In this document: piece after piece, positions 6,901 through 42,490 of the stretch | Layout of the letters: each line of letters opens with the position of its first letter | How positions within the stretch are numbered: the first letter of the stretch is position 1 | Assembly: GCF_000003605.2 (NCBI RefSeq) | Contig: NW_003141337.1 | Location: forward strand, 4,933-47,422 | Reading direction: 5' to 3' | DNA length: 42,490 nucleotides | Origin: Saccoglossus kowalevskii | Taxonomy: Eukaryota > Hemichordata > Enteropneusta > Harrimaniidae | Notes under the pieces: model-generated | Database searches by the model: none | What the model was told of the DNA's origin: nothing | The model's input: the letters and a program-made list of their open reading frames with translations, nothing else | Made by a program: the position numbers and the translations under genes

Positions 6901-9605
6901 ACACTATTGAGTAGAGGTTTTTAGACACGCCAAACCCACGGACATCCTCCAAACCGGTCATGTGGGAGCGTATATAGTTTTTGTTAATCCTACCATGCTT
7001 AATAATCACATTTTGAACATGATCGAACATTTTTCTTCACTACAGATGTCCCCTGGACACCCCTTGAGCTGTGGATTGTTCAATACTGATGTCAAATTCA
7101 ATTGATTCTGACGTCATTGTAGATTGTTCGCGATAATGTATCTCATTATTGAGCATCAAGGCCATGGATAATAATGTAACAATGCTATTTTCGAAAATGA
7201 TTAAAAGAGAAGCTGTTTAAAAAGTGAGCCATTGTGAGGTAATACTAATATCGGCATCAAATAAATAAACGTTTTCTTTTTTAATTTTAGCTTTTGTTTC
7301 AATGTTTACAAGATTGTCCATCAGAACGATTTGCGTACCCTTAGTGATCAGAGAGTAAATTAGTGTATGGTTTTTAATGCCAGAAAATGTAAGATGCTAT
7401 CTATTGTTTTTTTAACGAACAAGAAATCTATGAAATTATGTGAACCCAATTCATACACTTACTAACACGTAATAACATTGCACAAAATTACATTTGATAT
7501 AAAGAGAATCAGCTCTGGAGTAAGTTGTCAACATAGTCATTACTGATATTAACTAATAATTCATTTCATATCAGCTAACCAAAACGTGAACACTGCCCAT
7601 ATCAAAGTATAAATAATCATGTATGATATAGTGTTTGATATTTTCAAATTAATTTGTATTATGTTCTGATTATATTCATATTGTAACTAGTAAATTCGTA
7701 CTATTAAATCATACAATTCTCTTTGTTTAAAATAAAAAATAAAGTCAGAATATGCTTGTTGTGCGAATTTCACGCGAAAACAGTCAGTGCCACTATACTG
7801 ATCGGTTTGTTGATCAACGAATTCATCTACGAGAATTATAAATACGACAGTCATTGTTCTTGGTTTTGTTAACCTATTTAATTGTCCGATTAAAACGGCT
7901 TTATGAATAATTAATCTTATTACGTTAGCTATCAACATATGACAGCTATCCTGTCGCCTAAACTTATTCCTGAAGACCAGTATTATTGAAGAATAATCTA
8001 TATAGCAGCTTTGCGGTGCCCATTAACGCTGCAGGTCGATGTCTTTTTTCAAAGCACGTTTATGACGATATTTCAGTACTGTGAATAAATCCAAGCTAGC
8101 TAGCTACGTACCAACAACATAATCGCTATATCACTCCTTTGTATTATACCGTGTCTTTGTCAAAGCAAGGGAATATAGAACGATCTCCCCTAAGATACTG
8201 CATATCAGGTATCAACGCAATCGGCTTAATATTCGAAACAGATTTGAAATTAAAGTATAATGAACTTGGGGTTGAATATGATGAAACTCATACATAGACG
8301 ATCTCAGATGACATCAATGTAACTTGTCTGACGTATTCTTAAATTTCTTTTAATCATTTTATATTGACTTTATCTGCGATGTATTATATCAAACTGACAC
8401 TTTTGCAAGTGAGACCAATTTACAACTTGTATTGATCATGAGACTATTGTTTAGTGCGACTAAATAAGAACAATTGGTTTGTTGTATGAATACCCAAATG
8501 AAAGTACAGTTAGTATACAAGTTCAAATTCCCAAGGTGTATATCCTAGAACGAATTTAAAGGTGCGCATGCCACTAAAGCGTTCGTTACTCATACACGCA
8601 TATCCAGTATGCAACACAAATACGACGTTATTGTAAACAAATTGCCTTGTGCGTTTGCCTCTGTATCTTTCCTGTTCACTTTACTGTAGCAATAATTAAT
8701 AATGTCTAACACTTTGGTCACACAATTATGAAAATGAAGGCTCGAAAAGGATAACTATAATTAGTGAACGGAACGACTAGTCTAACAAATGTCTTCAACG
8801 TGGTCTTGAACTGTTTTAAAACACCTATTTACAAAGGGCATGTTTCAGTTGTTTCAGTTTCAAACTTGATTGAAGACTACAACATAAAATAGAGTCAATG
8901 TCCAATTTCATCGTGCAGCAGCAAGTAAATAAAAACAAATACGCGCCAAGATTAATACTATTTTGAAATATATTCAACATATATTCAATATTTGTCAAAT
9001 ATTGAATTCATAAAGTAAAAAAAAAACAGATAGCAAGTAGCACTTGTCAGAATGGCTTCGTAGTCGGTTGTATATATTCTATGTTCTACCAATTCTCTGT
9101 AACGGTCATGTGTTCTGCTCGCATGTTTCAACCGAAACGGTTACCACGAGCACATCTTCAAAACTTGAGCAACCGAGATCTGAACCATATAATCAAACTT
9201 GACTGTTGTCTATTACGTAATACACATGCTTTTGATACAACTTGTCGTTAGGCTTTGAAAGAGTGTCAAATATCACTAAATTTGTGGTACAATATCGGTC
9301 TAAATTTGTATATTCAATCCAGCAAGCCTCCAAACAACCTGTTGGTTGACTCTCTAAAAACTTATGATTACAATTGAAAATTGCCAGAAAAGAAGCAGAT
9401 GACTATTCAAAATGTTTACATTAGTTATGAGACGATCACATTAATTATGTCAATTTATTCAAGGTATTTGGACGACATGAGTGCCCGAGATACGAATGAT
9501 GAAATGAATAATTCTAGACAATAATTATTGACAATTACAAGCTTAGAAGCAAGAGAACTACCACTCCTGCTACATCGGAAGCGCCCTCAAGACACGGGCA
9601 ATACA

Positions 9606-9823
9606 ATGCAGCTTTTTAGCACCAGTCAACCATGCACTATGGAGAAAAAGACAACTTGGAAAGACGTTGTTAGAGAGTTTGGACTGAACACGACTGCACA
9701 TGGCATTCCTCACATCGTGACGGCCACAAATCGCTGTGCACGATTGGCTTGGATTACAATCGTCTTCATTGCATTTGGTGTTCTTATGGTAGATACCTAT
9801 GATATGTTCTCAATACATCACCT
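9606..9823 (+). CDS. DEG/ENaC channel N-terminal exon (His-Gly motif and TM1), isolated
   Basis: The frame encodes the start of a degenerin/epithelial sodium channel (ASC family). It has a short cytoplasmic N-terminus, the gating motif region TTAHGIPHI (His-Gly, essential for gating in this family), a basic/aromatic step into the membrane (RCARLAWI) and a hydrophobic helix of about 20 residues ending VDTYDMF. In family members this is followed by a Y-x-x-Y-P segment, absent here, so the exon should splice. A good donor (CT|GTGAGA) lies at 9823/9824; ATG|GTAGAT at about 9789 is an alternative. The first in-frame ATG is at 9606, another at 9639; the open frame runs further upstream without an ATG. 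No following exon was found on the plus strand. The lectin-channel gene at 27-40 kb is on the opposite strand, so this is a paralogue's first exon, a stray exon, or evidence of rearrangement or misassembly. Confidence 0.75.
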
Positions 9824-13650: not shown

Positions 13651-15613
13651 TAATTCATATCGTATGTATATATGTAGTGTAGACATCGCGACTCTGAAAT
13701 ATCAGGAATTTTCCAGTATATTCGTTACTTTGGGTAGGCCTCTCCGTTATATCTAATGTTGGTTGATTACTTTTTGTTTTGTATAAGGTAGTGGTTAATT
13801 GTATATAATCACAAGAAAATGTTAATGTAACTGACAATTTAACAATTGTTGTTGTTATGTGTGACTTCCTGTCCCGACTCAACTTGGCTCGAAGACGACA
13901 AACAACAGACAAGACGTAGACGCCGAGCGGAATGAAGTTGTTGATAAATACATATGTTCACCCAGAAACATCTCAGAAACATATCGACAACATCTAGCCC
14001 CTCAGCTCTCAGTAGCATTCTGTGATATTTTTAAATTTTATTTATTTTCGCGTGCGGGAAATAAAAGGGCAGATAGAACGAAACAATTTCTTTTGTTCTG
14101 TTGGTACATAGATTTCGAGCTTTTTGGGGGGACGAAACTAAAGAACGTTTTCATACATTTTTTCTCCAAAAACGATTTTCGTTTCGCCATATTGTAATAC
14201 AGCGATCACTGTAACATTTCCAGCTGAACGGCAGCAGCATTGCGATGCAACGGGCAAACGTAGTATTTTTAGTTAAATAATAAAGAAAATTACACTAGAA
14301 CAAAATCGGCAACGGGATGATGTTTCTAAATATCGCGGACAATTCAAGCATTTTCGTTGATCGGAAACCCTCCTTAACCTAGTATGCACCGGTCTCGATG
14401 TCACAAAGTGCGTTGTGGTCGTCGACTTCGTACTAAGGTACTCTATAAATGAGGCATTTTCAAAGGTCAGGGATTGTCTCATTTTCATTGACCATTTTAG
14501 GTCTTTAGCCAAGTGTGCCTTTAGTAAGAATAAAAATCGTACCAAGTAAATACCTACGAAACTGCATATATATCTTATTTTGCCTCCCAGACATGTATAT
14601 GTCTACTAATACATGCACATGCAAATGAGACTACAACGAAGCAGTGACTCAGCATGACATATGAACTCATCACTGACACATACAACGAACAATAGCTAAA
14701 TAACATAATACTATTAAACAACTTTGAGAGTGAAACACTTTTATCACACAACGCCATACTTCAAATTGTTGGCCATGGACAATCTATTTTATTTCCTTAT
14801 GTAATATTGAATTATTTTTTATATATTTGTCTTTGGAAATTGTTTTAACATTCAATGCACCAATTGTTACTGTGTTCTGTGTTAATTGGAAATGTTTACA
14901 TCTTTACTCCGGCGTTAAAACATATGAAATTGTATGCTATATGATATGATATGAATACAACACGGGCGTATAAATAGGATATACTTGGTAATCGTTATTC
15001 TGACTAATTACACGTTTTGGACAATGGTTTCATTAACATGTGATTAATTATGAGAAATCATATTACGTTTTAGTGTCTTTTTTAATGTTCCACAATTCTC
15101 TGTATATTTCCCAGTGTTACCGTTTGTAACACTAACAAACTACGACGATCCGCTATACGTGATTCCATTTACAGTGATCTACTGGTTGTGGATACAGACT
15201 TAGTTATACCATACCATGGCAAGTAACGCTATTAAAATATTTAACAAAACACCATTCTGTCAAAATTATTTTAGATTTTGAAGAAATGCAGAAGTGCCAC
15301 ACATTGAATGATGCCACTTAAGATGTCTTTTTACTAGTAAAACGTGCAAGTGATAGTGCTGTCACATAGTTTCACGTTTGCTACAATCTAGTGAAAATAA
15401 GTGCTACTTCTGACATTAGTCAGTGACTGCAATATCCAAGTGTCATGCAAAACAATGTCAAACCTGCACTATTCCCATCACAGTCTGGAACCTCTTGATT
15501 GTGTCACTAAAATGTTATCTATAGATTTTTTTATTACTGCCTATGTTGTAAATGAGCTATTGTAAATTACTTATATTTCGCACAGACTATAATATTATGT
15601 ATACGAAATTTCA
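13651..15613. other. intergenic DNA, nothing named
   Basis: No gene could be supported. A GC-richer block at about 14.05-14.55 kb contains a 90-codon minus-strand frame and a readable plus-strand frame; neither matches a family I recognise. It may be an old repeat copy. Confidence 0.35.
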
Positions 15614-18012: not shown

Positions 18013-21000
18013 TTAATTTGTTAACAATTGTTTTCTAACTTCGAATGCTTTGAACACAAACACACAAATATTTCGTAGAATATCACCATTTGTTGCTTGA
18101 ACAAGCCTTTGAAATGTATCTACGGTTGGTTGGAATGAATACTGTTGGGGGATTAACTCTCGTCTTAATGTGTTATAGGCTAGACAAATCAACAGAAAAT
18201 GATATTCATCCTCAACAAAATTAGCACGACATACTACAGACTCTTTTCGTTGAAGGCAAACCTTCGCGCCGACCTTCTTCAATTCTAAGGGGTAAAACCC
18301 CACAGCGAAAACAGGCAAAAATGCGGACGAGTGAATTGCAATTTAAAGATAAATATTTCTCCGGTTCTCGCAGTACAAATTCAGAAAGAAAAATGTCCTT
18401 GCTACCTACTTCTTGAGCTAGCCAGACATACCCAAAGCCATATGAATACAAAATGTGTTTAATTGCCGTCACCCAGTTATTTCTACCTAGGTCATTTAGA
18501 TTACGGAACATTGAATATGCATGCCTAGGAATTCCCGTAGGGGGAGTTCTAAGAGTATAAGCCAAAACTTAATACAACGTTTAAGTGTGGAAACAAAAAT
18601 TGGAAGTCGCCCACATTCCCCAACTACAGCTTCTTTGGCAGTACCTTGAAGGAGCCCAAGTAGCCTCCTGCACCATTTCCTATGTACTTTTTCAATTTGG
18701 TCGTAGTATTGAAATCCTCATATTAATTTGAAATAGGTGTCAAAATGAACCCCATTAATTTTAACAGATAACGATAAAAGAATCCTGAGCGTTTTCCCAG
18801 CCTGGTCCGCTAAAGTAGAAACTGCTTTAGACCAAATGTTCCTGGAAGAAAGCACGATACCTAAATACTTAGGATAGGAAACAACTTCTAACTCGCTTCC
18901 CTCAAGGTACCACTTCTCGTTTCGTGAAGCATGACCGCCTTTGCGGAAAACCATAACTTTTGTTTTTTTGTAAATTAACTTTCATACACCACTTGCTACA
19001 AAATTGCGATAAAATATTAATCAAATTCTGCAGGTTTGGAATTGAGTCACTAAAAATGGCTACATCATCTGCATAAAGTAATGCGAACAGATTATAAATG
19101 TCCTGTGTTAGTTGAATCCCCAAATTTCCTGAGTTAACCAACATCAAATTTAATTCTTCAATAAAGAACCTAAATACAATAGGGCTCAACCTACACCCTT
19201 GTCTGACCCCTACCGGACATTCAAAGGAACTTGAAAGATTTGATTCAGATTTGACACAAGACTTAACATTACTATATATAGAACGCAATATACAAAACAT
19301 GTTACCATGGATACCAATTGTTAATAATTTATATAATAATAGTGAATTGTTTATTCTGTCGAATGCTTTAGAAAAATCCACGAAGAGACAATAAAATTTA
19401 CCACCCCTTTTTGCCAAATATCTCTGCACAATAGCATACAAAACAAAAATATTATCTATAGTACTGTGATTTTTTCGAAAACCCGACTGACAATCGAATA
19501 ACACGCCATTATATTCTGCCCATAAACTTAGCCTTTCATTTAAAATTGCCGTAAAATTTTTTCCTAAAACATGTAATAATGATATCCCCCGGTAGTTTTT
19601 TACATCATCCCCCGTGCTTCAATATGGGAATAACAACACCCGATGCCCACTCTTTCGGAAAGTTGCCTGAATTGTAAATAAAGTTGAACAGAAGGGTTAG
19701 AACAGGAAGAATAATTGGGGCCGAGAATTTAAAAAAACTCATTTGGAAGTCCATCGTCACCTGGCGCTTTACTATGCTTGAGTTTATTTAAACTTTTCAA
19801 AATTTCATCCTCCGTAATATCTTGGTTCAAATGATCAACCTCACCATTATTTTGGACGGATAACCCTGGAATTTTCCCCTGTAAGACTGCTTCCTCAACT
19901 GAATTCATGATTACATGATTCCCCGATTTGATTCACACTATACAGGTTACTGAAATTGATATTCAATTATGATTTACTTTTGAATAAATCTCTTTAGGAT
20001 TTCCCATAACTCAACTGAACCAGACACAGCTGCATCATTTAAACGGTCTTTGATGAATGCCTGCCACTCTTTCTTTTTTTCTTTACAGAGTAATTTGATT
20101 TTTTTCTTCGCATCTACGAATTCATTTAAATTAATCTCATTTCCCAGCCGTCTAAATAATTTCAGCTTATTATACGTACATCGTTTTCGTTGATGACATT
20201 CTCTATCGAACCATGATGGCTGATTGTTAGGTTGTTTATCGATATTTGTGACATTCTTAATTTCCATTTTTCTCCCAGCAAATTTCAACGCTGAATTTAA
20301 TTTGGACATTGCAATTTCAACATCAGGCAAGGCGTTGGTTGAATCCAAGATTCTTCGGATTTGATTTTCTTTGAAAACTCATCACTGTGTTTTTCATTCC
20401 ATCTAAAACGAACGTGTTTAGCAGACGACATAATATATGGATTTGTTTGCATAACCTTAGACTTATCTGGAACACAATTCATCTTGCAAATAATTGCCAT
20501 ATGGTCTGATCTATGACGCAATGGTATGTCAAAATCGATTACATAACTGAAAAGAGGTCATTGCAGAATACAGTAATCGACAACACTCGTCCCGTTTGCG
20601 TAATGCAAATAAAATTTCCAGTCGAATCATTTCCCAATCTTCCATTGGCTAATTGAACATCAAAATCTTTACACAACTCGATTAAAGATACACCTTGCGC
20701 ATTTACCACTTTGTAATTTGACGAGCGTGGCATGCAAAAATTGTCTGCATTGTAAACAGTGCTTTCAATAGGAAGAAATCGAGTCATCCACAATATCGTC
20801 AGCAATGATACCTGTTCTGGCATTAAAATCACCATTAACATAATATACAACTCTGGGTTTCCTGAAATATACTCAGTTAATTTTCCATTTAGTTTATCGA
20901 TATATTGAGAAGCATTTTCGGGGCGAATACAACAGCAACCAAACAAAAGATCTTCGTCCACAGATAATACCGACTTATCAAAACGAATAAAAATACAATT

Positions 21001-27488: not shown

Positions 27489-27892
27489 TTATGTTATTAC
27501 TGGTTGTTCTCCAACACGTGACTGTCGTCTTCGAACCCATTGGCCGACGTTGTTGCGATTTCTCTTGGGACATTGTCGACAAAGCATAAGAATAAATTTC
27601 ACAAATTCAAAAACAGATATAATTGATATTCCAACATAAAGTCCCAATGTCCCACCAATGTCACTGAGAAGGTCTTCCCACTGCAATAATAACAGAGTGA
27701 TGTCACATATCATTCATTAGCTGTGTTAATGTTGCGTCAAAATGTATTGTGCAGCACAATAGTTTATTTAAAATAGGGGAACTGGTGTGGTGATATGCAA
27801 AGAGTTCAGTGACTACCTTGTACGCAGCCTGTTCAGAAACTGAATCGTAGTTTAAAGTCTCAAAGTATATTTCTAGTCGCACCAGGTTGGAT
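27489..27892 (-). other. DEG/ENaC pore helix TM2 and C-terminal tail of the channel gene
   Basis: Exon 27892-27817 encodes the strand leading into the pore (LVRLEIYFETLNY). Exon 27680-27489 gives DIGGTLGLYVGISIISV, containing the G-x-S selectivity filter (Gly-Ile-Ser) and the small residues of the degenerin gate, then a helix ending FVKFILMLCRQC. The tail is about 30 residues and strongly basic. Two cysteines just after the helix could be lipid-modified (inference). The stop TAA is at 27491-27489. Confidence 0.95.
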
Positions 27893-30800
27893 CTAAAGAT
27901 TATTACAGAAAAACGACGAAAACGTTAGCATATAGGTTGCACCTATTAGTACAAGTGATTATACTATTTGATCATCAATATGGCATACATTTATTAGTGC
28001 ATGTTATTAGGTTCATGTCATATATATATAACAATTCAATATATATCAATACATGGTCTATTATGTTTTTATATGGCAATATAAAAATATAAATGACAAT
28101 ATAAATATATCAGCACGTGATTTGCCAACACAGCAAAAAATAATGAAGGATATATTAGTTATGAAATATATATATCTGTTACCTAGCTGATTGCATATCG
28201 TTTACGTTCTTTAAATTTGAATGTTTCCATTTTAGTGTTTTAAGCAGCTTGTTCTAAAAAAAAAAAAAAACTTGTTATTTTCATTCATAATAGTAATTCG
28301 AACAATTAATAACAATGCATTTAATTACAGTGAGCCCAGTGCATGTTTCAAATTGTCCTTTATATACTTATAGTATAAGTATATAGTATAAGCTACCCAT
28401 TTATTAGAATACAAACCAAATTTTTATACTTTAATAATTCATGATCATTTTGCGACTTCGAGTTATTAACTCGAAATTTGTAAACGCTCCTTATGTAAGT
28501 CCGGAATCGTGTAACTTTACTCAATCTTGAAGGAATGATGTGAGTATAATAAAGCCGGATATTCGTCAATAAAATACAATTGACAGATTTGGAAAATAAA
28601 TGAAATTATTATTAAACGATTCCAATGAACTCCGATATATAAACGACTCTGATTTGATCAAAACAATACAACTCGAGAGAGCATGATCAATTTCTCTAAG
28701 TAGTAACTCGAATATTAACTGATAAATATATAAGTGTTTTTGTCTAACGAACCACTTGAAATGTGTATCGTTTTTATTCATTACATAATTACAAAATCAT
28801 TTACATATAAGTAAAAAGTTTACTATAACTAACACATACCAGATACACATCTGATGGCCACTGCGACTGGGATGAAGTTATGTCATAATTCGTTTCTCTG
28901 TAAAATAAATGTATATATACATATAAGCAAAATAATGATAACATATTTGTTAAAAATCGCTTGTTGAAGGCATGTCATAATGCCGGATATGTTTCGATCC
29001 GTCAAACTCAACATTTATGAAGGGATGCTAATGAATTATGTTTAAATTCAAATGATATCTCATACCCTTACACGTTTACCTGGTACAAGGGATGTCACTG
29101 TTTGATTTGCGACAATACATTATGAGCATATATGTACTAGGTATGTTCCTTGTTATTATACAGTAAATGTGGGGTCAATAGTTACACATTTTCTAGAAAA
29201 TAAGTGTGTTTCTTAAAGTTTGTTTCACAAAATGCCTGGTTGTCGAGATGATGAATTGTAAGTTAGTAACATAAGGTAATTCAATGGCCACGTCCATATT
29301 TTTAGAAACCAGGCTTACTTTCTCTAACCAAAACAAAGAGATATAACTCGATACTTAATTAACAATTCGTGTTAATGGTAACATAGAATTTTATTTGTTG
29401 ATGAAATTTAATACTTACTTGCATGGTGAAGGACAATTGCATTTGATTTCACCGATATTATTCAAATATTTGGTCAACTGTCGACATAAATCTGTTGAAT
29501 AATTACACCATGATAAATAACATTAATTCTTTTCACAAATAAATATGCTGTTGATTCCATGTAATTTAAAAGTGCGACTCGGTACGTATTGGTTTAATAT
29601 AAATCATATTCTTCATTATTGATGGACGAACTACCTAATATTGATTGTAACATTTGTAGCTTGGTTATATCCAAATGGTGTCATATCAGTAATATTCTTT
29701 GTATTCATTGTTTAATTTATGTTATTTTTCAGTAAATATAATTGAATACAGCACTAAATGTTGTTCTCATGTTTCTGGCAACAACTTGCCTGCACTGAGT
29801 ACCAATAATAAATTGTTGTCTATTGCTAGATATATAATTGTCACCCAGCCAATCGTAACAAAGTAGATCATATTGATCTTGACTACTTAACTTCACACAC
29901 ATGTAGTAGTCTGTTACGTCACCGATTTTTCTTGTCGCCGTATGCCCGCGCATATTATTACTAATGAGTTATACGTCTGTCTATAGTGGCGAATCACTGT
30001 CTTATTTATATGTATTTATATTTTCATAATTTGCCAGTATTCGTTCAGAAATTTGAGTTTTTTTATTTTTATTAGTACAACTTCGAAATGCTGATATTTT
30101 AGAAGGAATATTACGGTGATAAACACACTAACATTATTAAAATGGATCATCATAAAATATAATTAATAGCTGACATATTCCCAATATAGTTTCCCCTTGT
30201 CTATTCCTACGCGATGTTTGACGCCACTATGACCCTTGTTCGTCTTGATATTATGCGCGATTCAAAGCATGCCGTGGGATATCGTAGTGACCGAAATGAC
30301 AAATTTGCATAGTTGATAATACAAACACACAAATACCACTCTGTACGTTGATATAATCCTATCCCAGTGTGGTTATGAATATATGTCATATTGTCACTTG
30401 CTGTGTTAAAATTTGCACGCAACAACACTCGACCTACTTTTAACATACCTTGTGTTTTATTAAGGAGTTGACAACGGGGTGCTTCAGTAAATAGGTACTC
30501 AGCACAACCACAGTAGTGTATCAATGCATTTTCTGAGCATGCCTTCTCACATGACTATAAGTTCAAAATATTAGTAGTATTACAATGTGTTCTATCACGT
30601 GCATTAACATTTTGAATGAAACATAATATGGTGAATAATACTGTCATACAAAAACACATTTTTCGATTATTAATGTTTATATTTGTGGCAAATGTGTGGT
30701 TTGTTGGGTGGAAGCTAAGACTTTCTTGCAATTGCAGGGAAAGGCAACGCGGTATCTAAATATGTTATCTAAAATTGGTTTGGTAAAAAGTATGGAGATT

Positions 30801-33800
30801 CATGGTCTTTTTTCGACGCTGGTCACTAATCAAACTAGTAAAAAAATGAACATATAAATACGATAATTTATTGTCTTTGAATATACTCTGAACCTAATAA
30901 ATCAAGACCACGATTTGTTCCATTAAGATTGAATGATCTAGTAGCGATGGTATACAATGGCATGTTTGAATACAATCGATCTCGACATGTTTAAAAACGG
31001 TTGATGGCTTGTTAATATTCTGTAATTTCAATTTGTTGACAAAAGTACGGCTATAGCTAGTTAAATTAAACAATAATTAACAAATCTGAATATGGAAATC
31101 ATGTTAAAAATGGCCAGCATATGATTATTTTGAATAACATCGAGAAACAAAATACCGTGAGTTATATATTATAACTCGCCTTCGAACAAAATCAGTTATG
31201 TAACGCCTGCGAACTGTAAAATGAAATGCATAAAAAGCTAAATACGGTATTTGAGAATAAAACTAACATGGCAACAGTCGACAATTTAAAAAAGACGAAA
31301 CAAATCGACATGCTCCAATAACTAAAAGATATGTGTGAAGTCGGTGTCGGTCCATGAAACGATTGGTGACATATTCACATCCTTGGTCTAACATTGCCAC
31401 TAGTAAGTCAAAAGTAAACACATCTAAACAAAGTCCATGATTATATTTTTGTACTAAACTAACACAAATCTAAAGATGAGACCATAAGTTCCCATCTATA
31501 AGCACATTTCTAGAATTGAACATAATAGAAATATGAATACATACTTACAATTACTGAGTATGAAGTGTTACGTCGCTGGTCATACAAAATTTTTTCGGTC
31601 TGTCCATGCGTACAATTGCCATATGGCCATGCCTTACGAGCTGTATTTTTCTAAAATATTGGTAGCATAAGAGAGACATGTATATCAATCATATTCTATG
31701 TCAAATATATGTTGTTGTGTATCACAACAACGACGCCAATTGTTGAGTGATGATAAACGTAGTTCAAAAGACACGTTTACCTGGATATTTTTCCAAAAAA
31801 TTCAGTTGTCACTATAGTGCAGTGTAATTATAAGTTACAGCAATATAACCAGCCCGAAAAACATAATTAATTTTGAGTATGCTGTGTCAGCATACAAATC
31901 AAACTTTACACTTAACTCACATCTAATAGGGGGAAAAATAGTTAGAAATACTGAACAAAAACAAAATATTCAGAAGAAGAACATTGAATAAATAAACAAA
32001 ATAAACTGAAAGACAAGCATGCTTTCCCTTTCCCATACCTTTTGTGACATACTGTACTACTGAGCTGTTGCTTTGTACACCTGTCAAATGCGTTAACCCT
32101 GTGTTGGCAACTACATGTAAAATTTTAGTGCAGCTGCTATATCCTATAAAAATAATGAATTTCATTCGCAATACAGCAAATGTCACAAATAGTCCCGTAA
32201 TTGGCTTTTTTATTTTTTGGGGGAGATAGTCCTATTGTATATAACATAACGACAGAATCGAACATTAACATCTTCAACTGGAAATTTGGTAGAAACTCAT
32301 CATCCCAGACGTCACAACCATATGTATGTAAGAACAGGTAAGATAAACTTGCCAAATTTACTTTTAGCTCTAATAGTTAAACCAAGATAATTGTGTACTT
32401 TCACTGCTTCAACTTCACTACCCTCAAAAAAGAAATAGTTATTGTTTAAGCATTTGTATCAATGACCTTTAATTCTTGTATTCGGAGTAAGTCTCCATTT
32501 TTGTACAAAGCGGCCAAAAAAAGCTAGTGTAAATCCTTTATTAGAATTGAATTGCTATCATAAACCTATATATTTTAATTGACTAATCATACTTGAGTAA
32601 TTTTAAGATGTAAACCATCCTGCCAATCACTGTCAGATGTGTTTCGAAGTTTCACAAGTATCTACGTCACTAAGTAGTGAAATCGATTCTGGGCAATGGC
32701 GAATGCAGTAAATGTGCTTAGACAGCAAACGTTAGATAATATGAAATAGAGAAAATATTTTGTTAAATCACAAGTGTAATATATGTAACCAGAAAGTGAG
32801 CACACTTGAGACTTGCAATGTAGTCAGGTATATTGTTTATTCAGAACTACCCTGCCACACCATTAGGAACTCCCTAAATGCTTCAATACAAAACACATAG
32901 GACTACATAGCTCAGCATCAATAAGCATACTATATACCAAGCTCTCACAGAGCTCCCTGGAAATAAATATAACAGTGAAATTCACAGTAGAAAAATAGAA
33001 GGAAATAGAAATTGCAATAATCGTAAACTTGAGTACGATACCTCTTTTATTGCAATGGAAGTGATCGTTCCAGGTTTTACAGTAATACCCTCATCAACTG
33101 GGAAAGAAAAAATGTCACGTGGGAGGATTGAAACCCTAGCACCTGAATCTTGTCCGTATATACTGAGATATTCTTCTTGTTCAGTAAAAAGAGTTAGTTG
33201 TAAACCTGAAATAAACAACAAAAATTTAAAAAAACAATGAAATTATGGTTTGAATTTATGGACGGGTACGGGTTCAATGACAGTATTGATTGACCCTACA
33301 TACACTTAGAGATTAGAATTAAGATTTGAATTTATAGACTGGACTCATAATTTTCATTCAGAGATAGAAACAAGGTTTGAATTTATGGACTGGACTCATG
33401 GTTTGCATTCAGAGACTAGAAGCATGGTTTGAATATATAAACTGGACTCATGACTTGTAGGCAGAGACTAGAAACAGTTAAGTTTACAGACTGGACCCAT
33501 AGTTTGCTTTCATTAAACGGGAATCTGCATTAAGAGACCTGTATTTTCAATTATTTAGAGGCTGAACCCAGTGTTTCTATTTGATTCGATGTTTTGATTT
33601 GAAGATTTGTGCTGGTTTCAGATAATGAACCAGACTCGTGGTTTGGATTTAAATAAATATGTTGATTTGAACGCAGAGATTGTACCGGACAGTAAATGTG
33701 ATACATTCATGCCACTGGCCAATGTATATTACTTTTTAACAACAGAACGCTCCACCTGTTAATTACAAGTCTTTTAAATTCCATCTACCCATCTTTCACT

Positions 33801-36800
33801 GTATTGAAAACATACGCCATTTTGTTTGTTTATTATGTATGTATGATATATTTGATTATGTTTCAAACTCCAGCCTAATTTGGCATTGTATTGTGATCAT
33901 TTTATCATTGATCATTTCATTTGTACAATACTTACCGTATTGTGGCCCTGTACCCATAGCCCACTTTATTTGTTCATCACTTCCCACATTAAACTGAAAA
34001 CAGTTCCCATAAAAGCTATCCTGGAACTGTGTTAAGTCACTGAAAATGTAAATACCTTGGTTCAATTTACGTCTGTTCAGTTTTATTCATTAATTTAAAA
34101 AACAAATTAACTGGTCATTATCATTTTGTAAATGTGCAAATTGTTGGGACACATTCCACATATACAACATGTCATGTTACAAGTTTTATTGTAAGAACAG
34201 TAAGTGTAAAGTCACACAGAATAGAAATACCTTGGTCCGCATTGCTCTGATGCAAAAGTACATTGCAAAATAAAGGTTTTTTTTTGATGCCCATATCTGG
34301 AAACTTCTTCTTCTGTCAGTTTCAGTACTTGTCTCAAGTCACTATGATCTGGTGTCTTGCTAAATGTCTTGAATCGTGTCCAGTCAGGAGGATTTTCACC
34401 TTTGACACGGTAAAAACGGCTGTCATGATATATATATTCGAGAAAGTGATGATACACTGACAGATCCGGCGTTATATCTTTGAAAATATCCAACCAAAAT
34501 GACAGACGTTCATGTTCCAAACCTTCTGTTTCTGTAAGTGTCAATTTAATATTGTTCTAATAGAATTAGGTGTTTGGGTGTCTTACAGTTGAAACATTAG
34601 TTATGATAGCTAGATAGACATATTAAATTTGTTTAGGGCAGCTAATATTACAATACTCCATTAGCCATATAATTGCCTGTAATTTTCTTTTACAACAACG
34701 AACCTTCGATTGCATTATATTACAATAATATGATTGTAACAATACTCCATTTTTCAAAAGTCTATCATTATTACACACATATTACATATATTTTTGAAAA
34801 ATCATCTACTAACTGTTTTCTCTGAACATGCAATCGGCTTCATCAGATGCGTCTAGACAGTCTTTGATGATATCACATACTCTGTATGGATGAAGACATT
34901 CACCGGATCCACATTGCCACATACCAGATGGACAATTAGAGGTGTTATCTGATGAAATGAAAACTAAAAAAATGTGTGTTAGTTAATGAAGTATGTTTTT
35001 CTCTATTTTTATTCTGTTTCCAATGGTAATCTTGTCACGAGGCATGCCTATTGTGTTACATACCTCCATGTAAAAGCCGTTGATAATAATTTACATTAGC
35101 ATCAACCATCAAGTAAGATTTCATGTTATCGGCGGCAACGCTATATATTGTGCATACGTGCGTGGCATCACTGTAATCAAATGATTTGCATACAAACGCT
35201 TTCCGGAAGTAGCATTTATCTAAGCATGTTTCAAGTGAAACATCAGTATAAACTTCTCCATCATCCGATATAAGGCGCCTAAATTGTCTTTTGTCGAAAA
35301 GTGCAAAAAGTGCACGTTGTTTTATCTTTTCAACAGGGTCGATCAGTAGCTCTGTAATAAATAAATAATGCTTGATATAAATATAGACCCGTGCATTGCA
35401 GTACACAATCTATATATTGTATAATAACTGTTCCCCTTTTAGAATTCATATGTGAAATAACCACCTTCAAAAAGTACAACTCATATTCAGTGTAGCACTA
35501 AATGCTTTCAAGAAAAAGATAGTATGGGAAACAATTTCTTGTAATTTCATTTATTTCGCATGTCTACATACAAGTCCAAAATAAATTACCTTACAGTAAT
35601 TAGCTGTTAACATGACAATACCCATGATATTTCAAAGTAATACAAGTGACCTTGTTGTTTTGATACGATGATTAGCATCAAATGACGTGTTACCACACTG
35701 GTCTTTTGTGGAATTCACTCTTATCATTTGCGATTTTATGTTTCCATATGTACTAGGAACAAATACAGATGACATATATTTGATTATTGTCCGCGGAACG
35801 TTGTGCCCTATTAGATACAAACCCTATCGGCGTACTATCGATGATACACAGACACGGGTACTCTTGGACGTGAGTGACATTTTATTGCTCACGAGATGGT
35901 AGGTAATACTGTTGATGCTCATTAAGAATTTTGTTTTGAAAACACTGTATGAGCAATGGAATGTTAGGGTGAATGTGGATGAAATATTATAAATAATGTT
36001 CCAAAAGTGTTTCTTATTTCACTTGTCTACCTCCGCATTAGTTTAACGTGACAACAAAATACACATATTTCAATACTTGCGAATCCTTGAAATAATACGT
36101 GGTTGAATTTATTAACATGGATTTGTTAGTATATTTTGTCGTAGGTCTTTATCTCACAGTCAAGTAATGTTCACGTTCACATACCTTTGCCAAGTACTTG
36201 CACCTCACATAGTTGCAAAACTCCACTATCGACCCCTTCCAACTGCACACTAACATATCTGCCCAAAATAGGAACCGAACATGTTCTCGGTATTTTCCCC
36301 CAATACGTAATTTGAGGGACTACTTGTGCATCACATCTGAAATTCTGTTTTGGATCTTCATAGTATCCAACACGTACAACAGCTCCAGCTAGTCGCCAAT
36401 CTACGTTAAAAAGTAATGTGTGTTTACACAAAACACGGAAAACACGTCAGTTACAGTATAAATTATAATAATATGTTATCTCCGTATGATCGACTCACAC
36501 AGATGAGAAAATATAAGACGGAATGTTTTTTGCCAGTGTAGATGTCTTAATGTAGATGTCTTGGACACAGGGTCGATTATAGAACAAATTTTATTTTAGT
36601 AATCTATCAGTGTACATGTCACAAATATATATGTTATAGTTATTTTGGAACCCCTCCCCACATGTATTGATATTATAAATACACAGACGAACGTCCACCT
36701 ATTATCGATTAATTGATTAATACGCGACGATCTTCAGGGCAAGCACATTTTGGTCATTGACAACACATACACCAGAAACAGAAACAGAAAACGAGAATTA

Positions 36801-39800
36801 GTTCAGACGAGGCGAAGATGAAACTATTACTTGGTTCACATAAATTATAAATACACCATTGTGGAGCCAAAAACGCCGTAATTGTAAATAAGGCCTGTGT
36901 AGCACATCTTCTGTAGTCCGTGTTTTAATATATCCGTACCCTAGCACTACGATTATAATTTGCCGGTTACTTCCTTGAATTTTGACTTCAGTGATTTCAC
37001 TATCACAGAAGGTTCCGCCTATCAATCTAAGACTAATTTCTTCTTTCCAAATATAAATCAGTACCAAGACCCTAATTATTTCCGAGACTACTCGCTCCAC
37101 TGACCAGACCGGTACGTGCACCAGTCATTGCCATATACGCTGATAGGACGTGGACACACATTCCCGTTTGTGTCACTGTTTATGCCACTATGCGTGTTTA
37201 CACGAACTTTTGTTTAACATTTAGCTATTTCTAATAGTTACTTAGGACAACGATTACCAAATAATATCTACTAAATATCATATTTATAGGTCCAAGCAGC
37301 ATTTATTTAATTAAGAATGCAGTATATTAGCGCGCCATATAAAACGAGCATATTTATGTGTATATACTTGGTAGTAATGAAATATATAGTTACATTTGTG
37401 CCAGTGTTAATACATATTGCACATTTGACCTATTTTCATATTGTCTAAAAAGTGAATTACATTATTGGAAAATACGACTACATACTGCCAAAGTCTTGTC
37501 TATTATAGATATACACTTTGTACACGTAGTGAATACTACCAAGATCAACTCGCCACCATGGTTCACTCTCTTCAGCACTGTGGAAACACGTTCCTGAATA
37601 AAGGTCGGGGGTGGTGTCACCATCTACAGCTTTATCAGCTGTATTTCCATACCAAACACTGCTTTCATACACAGACTTATTTAATGCCACATTAGAAAGA
37701 GTACCAACCAAAACTGAAAAAAAAAAATAAATATTTAATAAATTGGTGTAATAATAATGTACACTTTCCCATATAAAATTGCAGTTTAGTGTGTTAAAGC
37801 AGTGTAATAATTTTCATTCAATATTCCCTCAATATGACTATTACGAAATCTCAAAATGTTGGTAATTGTACACAATATTTTAAAAATTATTATTGATTAA
37901 GAATTGTATTAATCCACATATTTCTTTTTATTTATGCATACCAGAAACCGTGTCTATATTGATGGCTTCTGCGAACAGGTGTTTGTGTTACCCATGTCCA
38001 GTGAGATTTACACGTGAATGGGTCTCGGTTTAAATAGATTTCCAAATTAGTGATGTTGTTATGAATGCATCCCAGTGTAACCGTTAATAAGTTGTGTGTG
38101 TCAATGTGAATTTCGAGTTCAGTAAAAGTTGTAGTAGCAAGTGTTGTAGGAGAGAATTGTTGTATTCATGTTAAAAGAAGTAAATGATTATAGAACATAG
38201 TATAAGCTACAATCATACTCATTACTCCGATATATATATATATTGTATTGATGCATATACATCTGGCCTACAGTGTTTTACTGATTTTTTAAAACATTTG
38301 TATGGTTACACGTACTCACATATATGTAATTTGAAGAACGAAAAATGATTGAAACGAAATATGAGTAGTTAAATAAAATACACAATAAACATTTAAAGTC
38401 TATATATATATATTATCTGCCTATTAAACAATTTTAACATTCGAACTTTGTCTCTAAAATAAATAATTAAAAATCAAAATCTACTCAATATACTAATACC
38501 ATACAATCACATCCATGGGAATATTACTTCATTAATCGCTTAGCATATGTCTTCCATTCAAAGCTATTTAGAGTCTTTTTATTCAATTAACCACATAATT
38601 TCCCAATATAAATTCATGGTAACCCATAATCCATTATCGATTGTTTACCTCACTCGAAAGGTTGAGTCAATAATAATACACAGGTCCGGCACATATCGAG
38701 TTTCAGATAAATATTGATTTCCCCACAATCAAAAGCTTTTTTCTAAAAAAATCACAGGTACGAGTTTTGACCTGGGTGCCACTCGTACTAATTATCGTGG
38801 GCGTCTCCGGCGATACATTCCCATCACCAAAAGAATTACATAAAGCTTGGTAACCACTCATTTTGTACTCGTTAGTCGGTGCAACAGTCAAAGTTGCCAT
38901 CTTTGTTTATATAAAACCCATAACTCGCGCATGCGTAGAGAGACGATCACGCCATTTAAATAAATGTATTTTAAACATGATTACCTTTTCCAAGTACTTT
39001 CACTTCGCATAAATGTAACTGATCTGTCCTGTCCTTTATCTGAATACTGACGTATCTTCCTACCGCATCTCCACAAAAAATGACAACTTCATCAATATTA
39101 TCACGTGTTACTGTGCCACATAGTATGTTACTTTCGTTCAGCGACTTACTATTTCCAACTCTCACTTCAGCTCCAATTAAACGATCACCTATAAACATGT
39201 ACGTGTACTCAATTATTACAATTATTTACTTAAAATCTCGGATAGTTTGTATCGCTAAAAACATACATCCACAGCGATAGGACGTTCAGTACGTGTATAA
39301 CTGCGATATACATTAGGTCCGTGTATGTACGTCTAAATCACAGTCAGCTGGCGCACAAATGATAATAAAATAAATACGATATATACTATATGGTGGCCGC
39401 CATCTTGAATGCTGCATAAAACTAAATAAGAGACAAGTTGTGAAACGCGTTTTTCAGATTCCTACAAATCAGGACAAAAATGCCAATCTTTCACAGAAAT
39501 ACGATCCGTTGGGGGTAATATTAAGGCAACCGAGAACAAAATTCGGCCGAATTCGTCGTTTTTGTGTGGGAAAATCCCTTAAATACGAACACCAAATTAC
39601 GCGAAGAACATAGAACACTTTCCCGGAGTATTTGAAACCCACATTTTCATCTAACTGTAAGGCCGTCGCTGATTGGCTGCTGAGCTGGAATGACAATTTT
39701 TGGTATTCATATTCATTTATCAGTTAACTTCTCTTTTTTAGTTTGGGAGTTTACCAGTTATAGTTTTAAATTATCTATATAATTTCAGAACGTGATATGT

Positions 39801-40028
39801 ACTTACTGCAGCAATCCTGTCTGTTGGTAATCACAATATTTTGTATTTCACATTGATATTCAATATCAACTCTCCACCACGGCTCATATTCTAACTGGGT
39901 ATGCATACAACTATGATGAGAGTAATCACTACTTGTATCGCCGTCTACTGCTTTAATAGCGCTTCCATCTCTATACTGACTACTTTGTTCAGCACGTTTA
40001 CCATATGCCACATTCGATGCCTTATTTA
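27489..40028 (-). CDS. DEG/ENaC ion channel with F-type lectin, PAN and LDLa ectodomain modules (5' partial)
   Basis: Spliced gene, 16 exons chained by GT-AG sites and matching phases: 40028-39807, 39188-38985, 37713-37486, 36400-36185, 35351-35064, 34963-34814, 34531-34231, 34039-33936, 33205-33042, 31650-31549, 30554-30449, 29491-29419, 28897-28840, 28253-28183, 27892-27817, 27680-27489 (stop TAA). The visible product is about 851 residues: F-type lectin 1 (1-142), F-type lectin 2 (143-290), PAN/apple (291-386), LDLa (387-436), then DEG/ENaC ectodomain (437 to about 790), TM2 (about 798-822) and a basic tail. DEG/ENaC proteins form trimeric, amiloride-type sodium channels in the plasma membrane. 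The channel part keeps the expected cysteine pattern and pore sequence and has no stop or frameshift, so the gene looks functional. The 5' part (cytoplasmic N-terminus, TM1, first palm strand) was not found in 40.03-42.49 kb and probably lies beyond the window. The lectin-channel fusion suggests sensing of fucosylated glycans; that function is inferred. Confidence 0.9.
32137..32560 (-). mobile_element. LINE RT fragment in an intron of the channel gene
   Basis: On the minus strand, a segment reads as the thumb region following reverse-transcriptase motif C (FFEGSEVEAVKVHNYLGLT), then a HTYGCDVW segment that in these LINEs lies about 60 residues further on, indicating an internal deletion. It is short, with frame changes. 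It lies within the intron between exons ending 33042 and starting 31650, in the same orientation as the host gene. Same broad LINE group as the copies at 12.5 and 18-21.5 kb. Confidence 0.7.
33257..33520. repeat. degenerate tandem repeat, about 51-52-bp unit, intronic
   Basis: Units beginning GAGACTAGAAnnATGGTTTGAAT and containing GGACTCATGGTTTG start at about 33309, 33361, 33412 and 33464, with partial copies on both sides. Units are about 80 per cent alike by eye. The array lies in the intron between exons 34039-33936 and 33205-33042 of the channel gene. There is no reason to suppose coding. Confidence 0.75.
34814..34963 (-). other. LDL-receptor class A domain exon of the channel gene
   Basis: One exon of 150 bp (or 135 bp if the acceptor at 34949-34950 is used instead of 34964-34965; both keep phase 1). 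It encodes the six-cysteine LDLa pattern CPSGMWQCGSGEC, then HPYRVC, then DCLDASDEADC. The D-C-x-D-x-S-D-E calcium-binding cluster is complete, so the domain should fold. LDLa modules bind calcium and small protein or lipoprotein ligands. The donor is AACA|GTTAGT, less usual than its neighbours. Confidence 0.92.
35064..35351 (-). other. PAN/apple domain exon of the channel gene
   Basis: A single 288-bp exon, 96 residues, in phase 1-1. The cysteine spacing (ETCLDKC, then FVCKSFDYS, then HVCTIYS) and the aromatic/hydrophobic pattern fit a PAN/apple domain, a protein- or carbohydrate-binding module. The acceptor is TTATTACAG|AGCTAC and the donor CATGGAG|GTATGT. The core has four or five cysteines, so it is a minimal PAN. 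The assignment rests on pattern, not on an alignment score. Confidence 0.75.
36185..37713 (-). other. F-type lectin (fucolectin/FTP) domain 2 of the channel gene, two exons
   Basis: Exons 37713-37486 and 36400-36185. It starts NVALNKSVYESS, followed by KAVDGDT and EPWWRVDLG. The H-x26-R-x-D-x4-R signature is complete (His in CFHS, NRQD, then Arg of WRLAGAVV after the intron), but the Cys-Cys pair after the Asp is replaced by Phe-Gly. The second half has GRYVSVQLEG and LQLCEVQVLGKG. The intron sits at the same codon and phase as in domain 1, so the two domains arose by tandem duplication. The donor is GGCA|GTATGT and the acceptor AACGTAG|ATTGG. Loss of the Cys pair may change ligand affinity. 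Confidence 0.92.
38703..38900 (-). other. coding-like GC-richer segment in an intron, unidentified
   Basis: A 65-codon ATG-started minus-strand frame (MATLTVAPTNEYKMSGYQ and so on) in the intron between the two lectin domains has markedly higher GC than its surroundings and a non-random amino-acid composition. It does not continue a neighbouring exon and no family is recognised. It may be a fragment of a repeat or transposon, a nested small gene, or an unrelated retained exon. Confidence 0.25.
38985..40028 (-). other. F-type lectin (fucolectin/FTP) domain 1 of the channel gene, two exons
   Basis: Exons 40028-39807 and 39188-38985. It begins NVAYGKRAEQSSQY and continues AVDGD and EPWWRVD, the hallmark of the eel-fucolectin / tachylectin-4 / pentraxin-1 fold. 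The fucose-binding signature H-x26-R-x-D-x4-R is exact: His in CMH, Arg-Gln-Asp in NRQDCC, and Arg in SDRL, the last completed across the phase-1 intron. The adjacent Cys-Cys, which packs against fucose in characterised members, is present. Later strands carry GAEVRVG, GRYVSIQI and LHLCEVKVLGKG, all expected. The donor is CTGCA|GTAAGT and the acceptor TTTATAG|GTGATC. It should bind fucose; specificity cannot be read from the sequence. Confidence 0.92.
39394..39715. repeat. possible non-autonomous element in an intron
   Basis: A block of higher GC than the adjoining intron starts near GGTGGCCGCCATCTTGAA and ends near ATTGGCTGCTGAGCTGG. The sharp composition edges suggest an inserted repeat within the intron separating the two exons of lectin domain 1. 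Terminal repeats and target duplications were not confirmed. Confidence 0.25.
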
Positions 40029-41149
40029 CTGAAATTAATGAGTTGCATGATACGTTGTTAATATAACGCGATGTGATAATGCGATAACATTTTTGAATGG
40101 ACTGTGTAAATGTTTTGTTTTCAATTTCGTTTAGTTGTCTTCGAATATATATAAAATTACTGTGTGTTTTACACTTTTATATTTTGGGCACTGATCTGCG
40201 CCATTCCGTGCAAACATTAGTGGTTACTTTGTTCCGGGTTTGAAATTGCGGATTTATTTCTGATTTCTGTTCATTGTTGTGTCGTTAAAATGGTCCCGCA
40301 AAGCCTGAAAAGAAGCACAATATAATAGTATTTCAGGGATTTCGGTACACGTGGGACCTTATTGTTAAACTTCTGGTTTATTAAATAATTTTTAAATTGA
40401 TTGTAGGCGTCTGTGTCTGTTTATTTTGTATATAGTGCATCAAAGGGCCACTGTCATACTTAAGGAGGGTTAATTAGAATGACCTGGTTATTAATCTTAA
40501 TGTGGAGAATGTTTTGTAGTCTACTAGTCCTGCGGCATAGCTGAAAAACTGTGCACATTGTGATACTAACATGAAACTTGGCACATGTGTAAAATTCATC
40601 ATTGCGGTTAATATTTGATGTAGGACCACCTTGAACTTGAGGTCATACATTTTAAAATTGTGATTTGATCATATTATGATTATTTATATTCATCATATTA
40701 TCACATAATCCAATTTAAACAGACAATAAAGTATTTGTATACTGTAACAAAGCTTGAATTCTTTTGATAGGAACATTATTTATGAAATTTAATTTATAAA
40801 ATTGCCGCACATAAACAAAAGTCGGGAGTTAACGTTGTATCAAAGCATTTCATTTAAATATGGTTTGTAATACTATAATAGATTACCTTACGAAGAACAG
40901 CGCCCTCTAATGTAAATAGGTTCAATTGCGCCCTCTATTGTTGAAGATTGTAATTCCTAAGTCGCCATAATGGATTTGACAGGCTTGTTTTTAACGCTGG
41001 TAAATCAGGCAGAAACCTGACAAAGTTGGCTTGTACTCGCTTATTTATTCACTTTTCTAACTCATTCTTCTAATCTTTATTGTTAGAAAAGGTTAAACGT
41101 ATTGGAAATATTTTAATATTCTGTGTTTCTCATTGACCACTATATCAAA
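40029..41149. other. sequence upstream of the first visible channel exon
   Basis: The first visible lectin exon starts in phase 1, so an upstream exon must exist. I searched this stretch on the minus strand for a signal peptide, the Y-P step after TM1 or the F-P-A-V-T palm strand and found none convincing. Paired GCGCCCTCTA-type motifs near 40.90-40.94 kb may mark an old repeat. Confidence 0.4.
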
Positions 41150-42490
41150 ATGGATGAACTCAACACTGATAATATTCATCAACCATTCACAAGTTCTAGA
41201 TTGGAGCAGTTGGGTGTGAAACGAATACACACAACCAGATTGAAAGACAAGCTCGTCACATACTAAAAGCCGTGACGTATTGCTAGCATTTGATGATGAT
41301 ATTGGCCAAGTTCTCTCTGATGCATTTCACAAAAACAATGATTCTGAGGCAGTGACTCTTGCAAGAACAGTACAAATAGTACGTCGGGAACTATTTACAG
41401 AAACAGAATTATTCAATGGTACATTCCAGCCAGACTGTCAATGTAAATCAGTACCCTCACCATTCCTAGCACTAGTAAATATGGTGCTTGAGGGTCCCAA
41501 TATAAAATATCAAGCAGCTAATCCAGTAATCCAGAAAACCAAGCAGCACTAACAATTGCTCAATTAATGAAGTTTCACAGTGTGAAGCACATGCGCATAG
41601 GAGCAAGTTCTATAAGGCATCTGAAAAGCAGTGAAACACCTTTGCCATTGTACATAGGAACCATGATTCATGCAAGAAAACGAGGATTGATAGACAGACT
41701 TTCTGAACTGGGCATTTCTGTCTCATATGACAGAGTTTTGAAGTTGTCTGCTGACCTGGCAAATGCTGTATGTGAGCACTGCTGTATGCAGAGCATCAAG
41801 TAATTTTCCCCCTCAAATTCGTTGTGGTGTATTTACAATGGCTGCTGTTGATAATATTGACCACAATCCCCCATCAACAACTGCAACAGGCTCCTTTCAT
41901 GGTACCGGAATCTCACAGATACATCATCCAGTGTCAAAGGACAAGGCTTGGACCTTGGATCTGTGGTGATAACGAACTCATCATCTACAAAATGTGTGAG
42001 TGCATTGCCTGTATCATATACAAATGTACCTCCTGTATCATCTAGATCAACATACCCTAGTGTACCTACTATGACTGCACAAATGAATTATCAACCTATA
42101 ATAGCGAATTTTATAAAGGAAGAAAAAGAATGGCTTGAATATGTTCGAAACAAGACGGAGCATTGCACTACTATGGATCTGGCGGACATTGACAACAATG
42201 GCACTGAGAATGTGGATGATGTGGAACCGACTGAAGATACACATACATTATCTTGATCTTCCTATCATGCCGCTCATCATACACAGGACATCCTGCCTAA
42301 GTGTACAAGTGTTCTATTACCACTTTTTCTAGATTGTGCACACTCAATCGCAATTATTCGTCATTCAATCATGGTAGTACAAAAGGCTGTGAAACATCTC
42401 AATCCAGGACAAATTCCTGTTATTGCATGCGATCAACCACTATTTGCCCTGACAAAAGAAGTACAACTTGGCCATTGACCATAGGCGAGG
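41150..42490 (+). pseudogene. decayed copy of an uncharacterised multicopy gene family (runs off window)
   Basis: Starting at an ATG at 41150 (MDELNTDN), plus-strand frames give collinear blocks: LLAFDDDIG-like at 41.28 kb, LFNGTFQPDCQCKSVP at about 41.42 kb, TPLPLYIGTMIHARKRGLID at about 41.64 kb, LGISVSYDRVLKLSADLANA at about 41.71 kb, AVDNIDHNPPSTTATGSFHG at about 41.84 kb, EWLEYVRNKT at about 42.13 kb and LNPGQIPVIACDQPLFALTK at about 42.40 kb. The blocks lie in several frames, so this copy is broken, and it continues past the window end. From memory, near-identical block order recurs in uncharacterised multicopy proteins of corals, molluscs and fishes, which suggests a mobile or highly duplicated family. 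I do not know its biochemical role. Confidence 0.5.

Follow-up and report, generated by a model that had tools for sequence, protein, structure and literature searches.

Channels of the DEG/ENaC family answer protons, peptides, force, sodium and proteases, and FaNaC and ASIC are gated by peptides or protons. In ENaC, the finger of the extracellular domain is described as relevant to gating, and loss of the GRIP peptide is proposed to change gating. A tie to the extracellular matrix has been proposed for the MEC-4/MEC-10 touch channel of C. elegans (PMC10148893). The published motif of F-type lectins (PMC8226959) is HX(26)RXDX(4)R/K. In this study, we describe a gene in a stretch of 42,490 nucleotides (hereafter the window) from the hemichordate Saccoglossus kowalevskii, in which two F-type lectin domains, a PAN domain and an LDLa domain are joined in one frame to a DEG/ENaC channel. 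The explanation that we favour, with somewhat better than even confidence, is that the window carries most of a single gene, all but its 5' portion, and that this gene encodes a subunit of a DEG/ENaC channel whose lectin-bearing ectodomain would engage fucosylated glycans.

Exons, domains and fucose motif of the window gene

The gene consists of 16 exons on the minus strand, running from 40028 to 27489 and joining into one frame of 845 codons and a stop. The exons are given below with the evidence for each; paralogous loci in the same genome are referred to by handles (C309, C3786a and so on), and TM2 denotes the second transmembrane segment.

39807..40028, minus strand: exon 1, N-terminal half of F-type lectin domain 1, with the H and R-x-D of the fucose motif (splice sites, PF22633, FBP32/1k12, motif)
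38985..39188, minus strand: exon 2, C-terminal half of F-type lectin domain 1 (splice sites, Pfam, motif)
37486..37713, minus strand: exon 3, N-terminal half of F-type lectin domain 2 (splice sites, Pfam, motif)
36185..36400, minus strand: exon 4, C-terminal half of F-type lectin domain 2 (splice sites, Pfam, motif)
35064..35351, minus strand: exon 5, PAN/apple domain (splice sites, PF00024 8.5e-8)
34814..34948, minus strand: exon 6, LDLa domain (splice sites, PF00057 3.1e-7)
34231..34531, minus strand: exon 7, DEG/ENaC ectodomain, later part of the finger, joined to LDLa in phase 1 and holding no Met codon (splice sites, genome matches)
33936..34039, minus strand: exon 8, ASC ectodomain (splice sites, Pfam)
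33042..33205, minus strand: exon 9, ASC ectodomain, one of the best-conserved exons (91% to C309, C3786a and C3786b; splice sites, paralogue comparison)
31549..31650, minus strand: exon 10, ASC ectodomain (splice sites, Pfam)
30449..30554, minus strand: exon 11, cysteine-rich part of the ASC ectodomain (splice sites, Pfam)
29419..29491, minus strand: exon 12, ASC ectodomain (splice sites, Pfam)
28840..28897, minus strand: exon 13, ASC ectodomain (splice sites, Pfam)
28183..28253, minus strand: exon 14, ASC ectodomain (splice sites, Pfam)
27817..27892, minus strand: exon 15, ASC ectodomain before TM2 (splice sites, Pfam)
27489..27680, minus strand: exon 16, TM2/pore helix with G-I-S, cytosolic tail and stop (splice sites, alignment)

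All 15 introns follow the GT..AG rule, the phases are compatible, the final TAA is the sole stop, and every intron around the module exons 1-6 is in phase 1. An earlier reading made from the sequence only had predicted sixteen exons with compatible phases, consensus splice sites and no stop or frameshift, and this was borne out; its exon boundaries stood apart from one refinement, the end of the LDLa exon, which lies at 34814 (donor GTTAGT). The 16 exons are real. The set is beyond chance, because the order of the exons recurs at other loci in the genome and because the ratio of nonsynonymous to synonymous substitution rates (dN/dS) against C3786a is 0.19 over 15 exons.

Pfam searches with the spliced product agreed with the predicted union of two F-type lectins, PAN and LDLa with a DEG/ENaC channel in one frame. 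The lectin-like domains were matched by PF22633 (4.6e-34) and PF00754 (4.1e-20), each over two stretches, the PAN and LDLa domains by the profiles and at the values listed above, and the channel by the ASC profile PF00858 (1.3e-66; 226 bits against a curated cut-off of 23.6). The ASC match covers positions 129-455 of the 455 in the profile. The ectodomain had been called complete, which is wrong for the window: the first transmembrane segment (TM1), palm strand beta-1, helix alpha-1 and the N-terminus are absent from the 16 exons. The G-I-S of exon 16 aligns to TM2 of ENaC and FaNaC, at what is presumably the selectivity-filter position with the G-x-S filter motif of DEG/ENaC channels. The solved structures closest to the lectin part are FBP32 (1.6e-47, two stretches) and, after it, the eel lectin 1k12 (7.8e-22); those closest to the channel part are ENaC (beta, gamma), ASIC1 and FaNaC, with ENaC beta best at 3e-39.

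The motif HX26RXDX4[RK] is intact in both window lectins. It occurred by chance in 21 of 20000 shuffled window domains, and in none of the unspliced six-frame open stretches of at least 40 residues in the window (23121 residues). Across seven loci it is kept in 13 of the 14 domains that correspond to lectins 1 and 2 (FL1 and FL2), and in none of three copies of FL0, a third, degenerate lectin upstream of them; for this comparison the paralogue lectin domains were cut at a donor at or after the aligned end. The conservation of the motif suggests that FL1 and FL2 of the window would bind fucosylated (or galactose-type) glycans.

Paralogous loci and position of the modules

Five collinear loci (C3786a, C3786b, C6, C3226 and C2851) carry TM1, beta-1, lectins, PAN, LDLa and channel exons up to TM2, in one order and on one strand. 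In C3786a, TM1 (10995) and beta-1 (18140) are followed on one strand by three LDLa exons, the C-terminal half of FL0, FL1, FL2, PAN, LDLa and exons 7-11 and 13-16. Splice sites fitting the window phases, which were imposed by the script, were called for 15 exons of this locus, and exon 12 was matched in the genome search, its piece lying outside the fetched sequence. At C309, TM1, beta-1, LDLa, FL0, FL1, FL2, PAN, LDLa and exons 7-9 were found, with N downstream and in 67149-69412; the order agrees with that of the five collinear loci as far as it is readable. For C3786b, C6, C3226 and C2851, TM1, beta-1, lectins, PAN, LDLa, exon 7 and TM2 are known as matches, and some TM1 and beta-1 matches in C2851, C3226 and C3786b read through stops, as expected past exon ends at the level of matches rather than splice sites. 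In the splice comparison of C3786b, a supposed exon 2 turned out to be a false match at exon 4 and is excluded.

The family's TM1 and beta-1 exons supply the part of the ASC profile that precedes the window match: those of C309 scored 67.9 bits over profile positions 1-86. FL0 of C309 reached 20 bits, below the PF22633 cut-off of 27.8, and that of C2851 reached 53.7 bits; in C3786a only the C-terminal half of FL0 was identified, and in C3786b and C6 this domain was read in part, hence the count of three above. Exon 7 of C3226 and C2851 has only about 42% identity to that of the window, but both loci preserve the order FL0-FL1-FL2-PAN-LDLa-channel, and the fusion of lectin and channel therefore looks old. 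In a tree of exons 7-9 (19 rows, of which C2851, C4507a, C2340b and C4796a had two exons each and C3229 one), two changes of the lectin label were needed, and a single lectin clade was not rejected by the approximately unbiased test (p-AU 0.18). Identity between C309 and the window is uneven (96% in exon 1, 79% in exon 7 and 91% in exon 9), a pattern to be expected if genes were converted or if constraint differs from copy to copy.

That the lectins belong to the extracellular loop, as predicted, is supported by these paralogues, with TM1 and beta-1 upstream and channel exons downstream. When the C309 TM1 and beta-1 exons were placed before the window channel exons, this composite matched gamma-ENaC at 1e-51 (phmmer), and the end of the beta-1/alpha-1 exon aligned to LYGF of gamma-ENaC, a few residues before RKRR, which we take to be the furin site. 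The interval from beta-1 to exon 7 holds the LDLa, lectin and PAN exons of the family. The string of modules thus appears to lie within the ectodomain, following palm strand beta-1 and helix alpha-1 of the finger, at about the GRIP position of ENaC.

On the minus strand, C309:24927-12959 carries what looks like an incomplete further copy, made up of TM1, beta-1, FL1 and one half of FL2, and no PAN or channel exon after it was among the matches listed. Channel exons akin to window exons 10-13 (62-83% identity) lie at C46:372992-375204, where neither exon 7 nor a lectin was among the matches listed. About 27 of the 102 listed matches to the lectin query fall in C4257:95091-232589, with no ASC match among those listed; this is probably a cluster of F-type lectin genes without a channel.

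Proposed mechanism, constraint and alternative explanations

We consider it plausible, and somewhat more likely than not, that fucosylated glycans tether or gate the DEG/ENaC subunit that the gene encodes. Such a subunit would be expressed at the cell surface. The string of modules is encoded by phase-1 exons, comprising LDLa units and the degenerate lectin (in the paralogues), the two F-type lectins, PAN and LDLa. The two lectins would grip a glycan, fucosylated or of galactose type, that is presented by matrix, mucus, a microbe or an adjacent cell, with PAN and LDLa as spacer or protein-binding units. A pull on the string, or its displacement, would then move the finger, and the pore would open or close, as proposed for loss of the GRIP peptide in ENaC; alternatively, the string would tie the channel to the matrix, as proposed for touch channels.

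The comparison of the window with C3786a, which covered 811 codons, gave dN/dS below 0.35 in every module (FL1 0.26, FL2 0.31, PAN 0.13, LDLa 0.19 and ASC 0.15). Since the split from C309, with C3786a as outgroup, 28 synonymous and 38 nonsynonymous changes were counted on the window branch, 21 ambiguous changes being set aside. The resulting ratio of about 0.36 (p 7e-5) implies that the copy was under constraint for at least part of that time.

Several points weigh against the favoured explanation. Constraint is looser between the window and C309, where dN/dS was 0.30 (612 codons, 9 exons, dS 0.2), with 0.45 in LDLa and 0.37 in ASC; the cut of C309 exon 1 (63163-62945) used for these values included an out-of-frame stop at the second codon, the window's acceptor putting this exon out of frame and an AG a few bases on appearing to restore it. 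FL1 of C3226 has lost the fucose motif, and the correspondence with GRIP rests on pairwise phmmer alignments in a variable region. The gene is known from genome sequence alone, and we infer the coupling of the lectins to the gate. Finally, the window copy has no TM1, no beta-1 and no start codon; such TM1 and beta-1 exons as the contig contains are damaged and on the opposite strand.

The modules may also have a role other than gating in a working channel. They could anchor or position the subunit, assist folding and trafficking, or form an ectodomain for adhesion or immune recognition, with the pore silent or answering another ligand. This is possible, if on the unlikely side. Related channels carry kringle, PAN, ShK and LDLa domains in the same interval, so the site tolerates replacement; but the insert lies in the finger, the gating-relevant part in ENaC, and the retention of the motif in nearly all FL1 and FL2 domains argues for sugar binding, although not for gating.

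A separate question is whether the window copy itself is functional. None of its 16 exons holds TM1, beta-1 or a start codon, and the contig, which has 47422 bases, ends at the last base of the window, 2.46 kb upstream of exon 1. As exon 1 begins at an acceptor, upstream exons must exist; no credible match to TM1 or other upstream exons was found in 40029-42490 by tblastn with five paralogue upstream pieces. Two copies of these exons lie elsewhere in the window:

9504..9791, plus strand: damaged TM1 exon of the family, interrupted within TM1 at 9791, a possible relic of the 5' end of the window gene (tblastn, comparison with C309)
15107..15223, plus strand: beta-1 exon of the family in which 36 bases spanning the acceptor are deleted (tblastn, comparison with paralogues)

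The final stretch of the TM1 copy, about 170 bases, matches C309 exactly and suggests a recent duplication or conversion. The gene in the window may have been truncated at its 5' end, and could be a pseudogene whose own TM1 and beta-1 are these fragments at 9.5 and 15.1 kb, shifted by inversion or a scaffolding error, the paralogues being functional. The damage to both fragments, the run of N near 24.7-25.0 kb that separates them from the minus-strand exons, and the nearby contig end favour this. We nevertheless consider it rather unlikely, as all 16 exons and their splice sites are intact, the substitution ratio on the window branch indicates constraint, and the true 5' exons may lie past the contig end. 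The copy is a pseudogene if its displaced 5' end is represented by the plus-strand fragments, but not if that end is located past the limit of the contig. Either outcome is compatible with the favoured explanation, which concerns the design of the channel and is independent of the state of this copy.

One gene for lectins and channel, as the sequence-only reading had it, is strongly supported from the genome: TM1 and beta-1 stand upstream of the lectins in the five collinear paralogues, so that a channel without the lectin-side exons would lack TM1. Between LDLa and exon 7, the intron of 282 bp contains neither TM1 nor a usable in-frame start, the sole in-frame ATG in the 150 bases upstream of exon 7 is cut off by stops, and splice sites for the same phase-1 join are present in C309, C3786a and C3786b (in one comparison the script imposed the window phases). 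Two adjacent genes, a secreted lectin and a separate channel, are thus very improbable and appear virtually excluded, having been rejected on the lack of Met in exon 7, the content of this intron and the position of TM1 in the paralogues, although the unspliced LDLa exon reaches a stop two codons on, so that a soluble lectin isoform is conceivable.

Elsewhere in the window, 18902-19618 on the minus strand holds a reverse-transcriptase frame (PF00078, 1.5e-32) of a LINE-like (long interspersed nuclear element) sequence. Outside the window, a COX1 match on contig C4830 contains TGA codons, and an adjacent frame resembling nad1 has 2 AGA and 8 AAA codons.

Wider family and comparison with known systems

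The genome contains at least 93 exon-level ASC matches. An LDLa match lies within about 1.5 kb upstream at 12 of 18 fetched loci with an exon-7 relative, these loci being part of the exon-7 relatives matched in the genome (tblastn; window excluded), and Pfam added one more, C459. Upstream of the exon-7 relative, the C4507 channel has LDLa and ShK, and the C3229 channel LDLa and half a kringle (32.6 bits against a cut-off of 34.3). At C2729:105327-118197, on the minus strand, the interval from beta-1 to exon 7 of a DEG/ENaC channel encodes no fewer than three LDLa, five PAN and four kringle domains; its loop resembles the ectodomain of plasminogen or HGF set into a sodium channel. The sequence-only reading is supported in part; it had missed the multi-locus family, the third lectin, the further LDLa units upstream in the paralogues and the related kringle, PAN and ShK channels. 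Tentatively, the DEG/ENaC channels of this lineage might form a modular receptor family, in which strings of lectin, PAN/kringle, ShK or LDLa at the GRIP position would turn the channels into ionotropic receptors whose ligands are external glycans, matrix or components of the protease system; the window gene would then fall in a fucose-gated or fucose-tethered branch.

In the open-licence papers to which the search was confined, no DEG/ENaC channel with an F-type lectin was found, and degenerin together with F-type lectin gave nothing. The F-type lectin domain and sodium channels were co-mentioned only as unrelated, and none of the papers matching F-type lectin domain architectures and fucose was on channels. 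The module names with amiloride-sensitive sodium channel gave 45 matches, the channel term occurring in none of the best 20; ENaC with low-density lipoprotein receptor class gave 13, of which the best 8 were on proteases and other topics; ENaC and ASIC with F5 F8 gave 588, with F5 F8 in none of the best 5. Two DEG/ENaC phylogeny papers and a review of the family make no use of the word lectin in their main text.

If the favoured explanation is true, conserved fucose-binding lectins in the finger would connect extracellular sugars with membrane voltage by a direct molecular link and offer a natural experiment on the limits of the finger as a sensor socket. The gene also bears on the question of tethering in touch channels, because the tether here would belong to the channel protein itself. 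Extracellular sugars may, in this animal, be sensed or gripped by channels.

Among known systems, ENaC shares the ASC fold, TM2 and a similar N-terminal region with this family and is the best solved-structure match of the window channel part; about where proteases cut the short GRIP tract of ENaC, these channels carry an extended string of modules (lectin, PAN and LDLa). FaNaC and ASIC have the common ASC fold, and their TM1 and TM2 segments were matched, but their solved chains (435-679 residues) appear too short for such a string. The likeness to MEC-4/MEC-10 is one of working only, a channel proposed to be tied to matrix; there the matrix proteins are separate gene products, whereas the binding modules here are part of the subunit. 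On the lectin side, FBP32 has two tandem F-type lectin domains, as does the window gene, and the H, R-x-D and R of the fucose motif in the eel lectin 1k12 line up with the window lectins. Both are lectins without a channel, whereas those of the window would sit inside a channel ectodomain.

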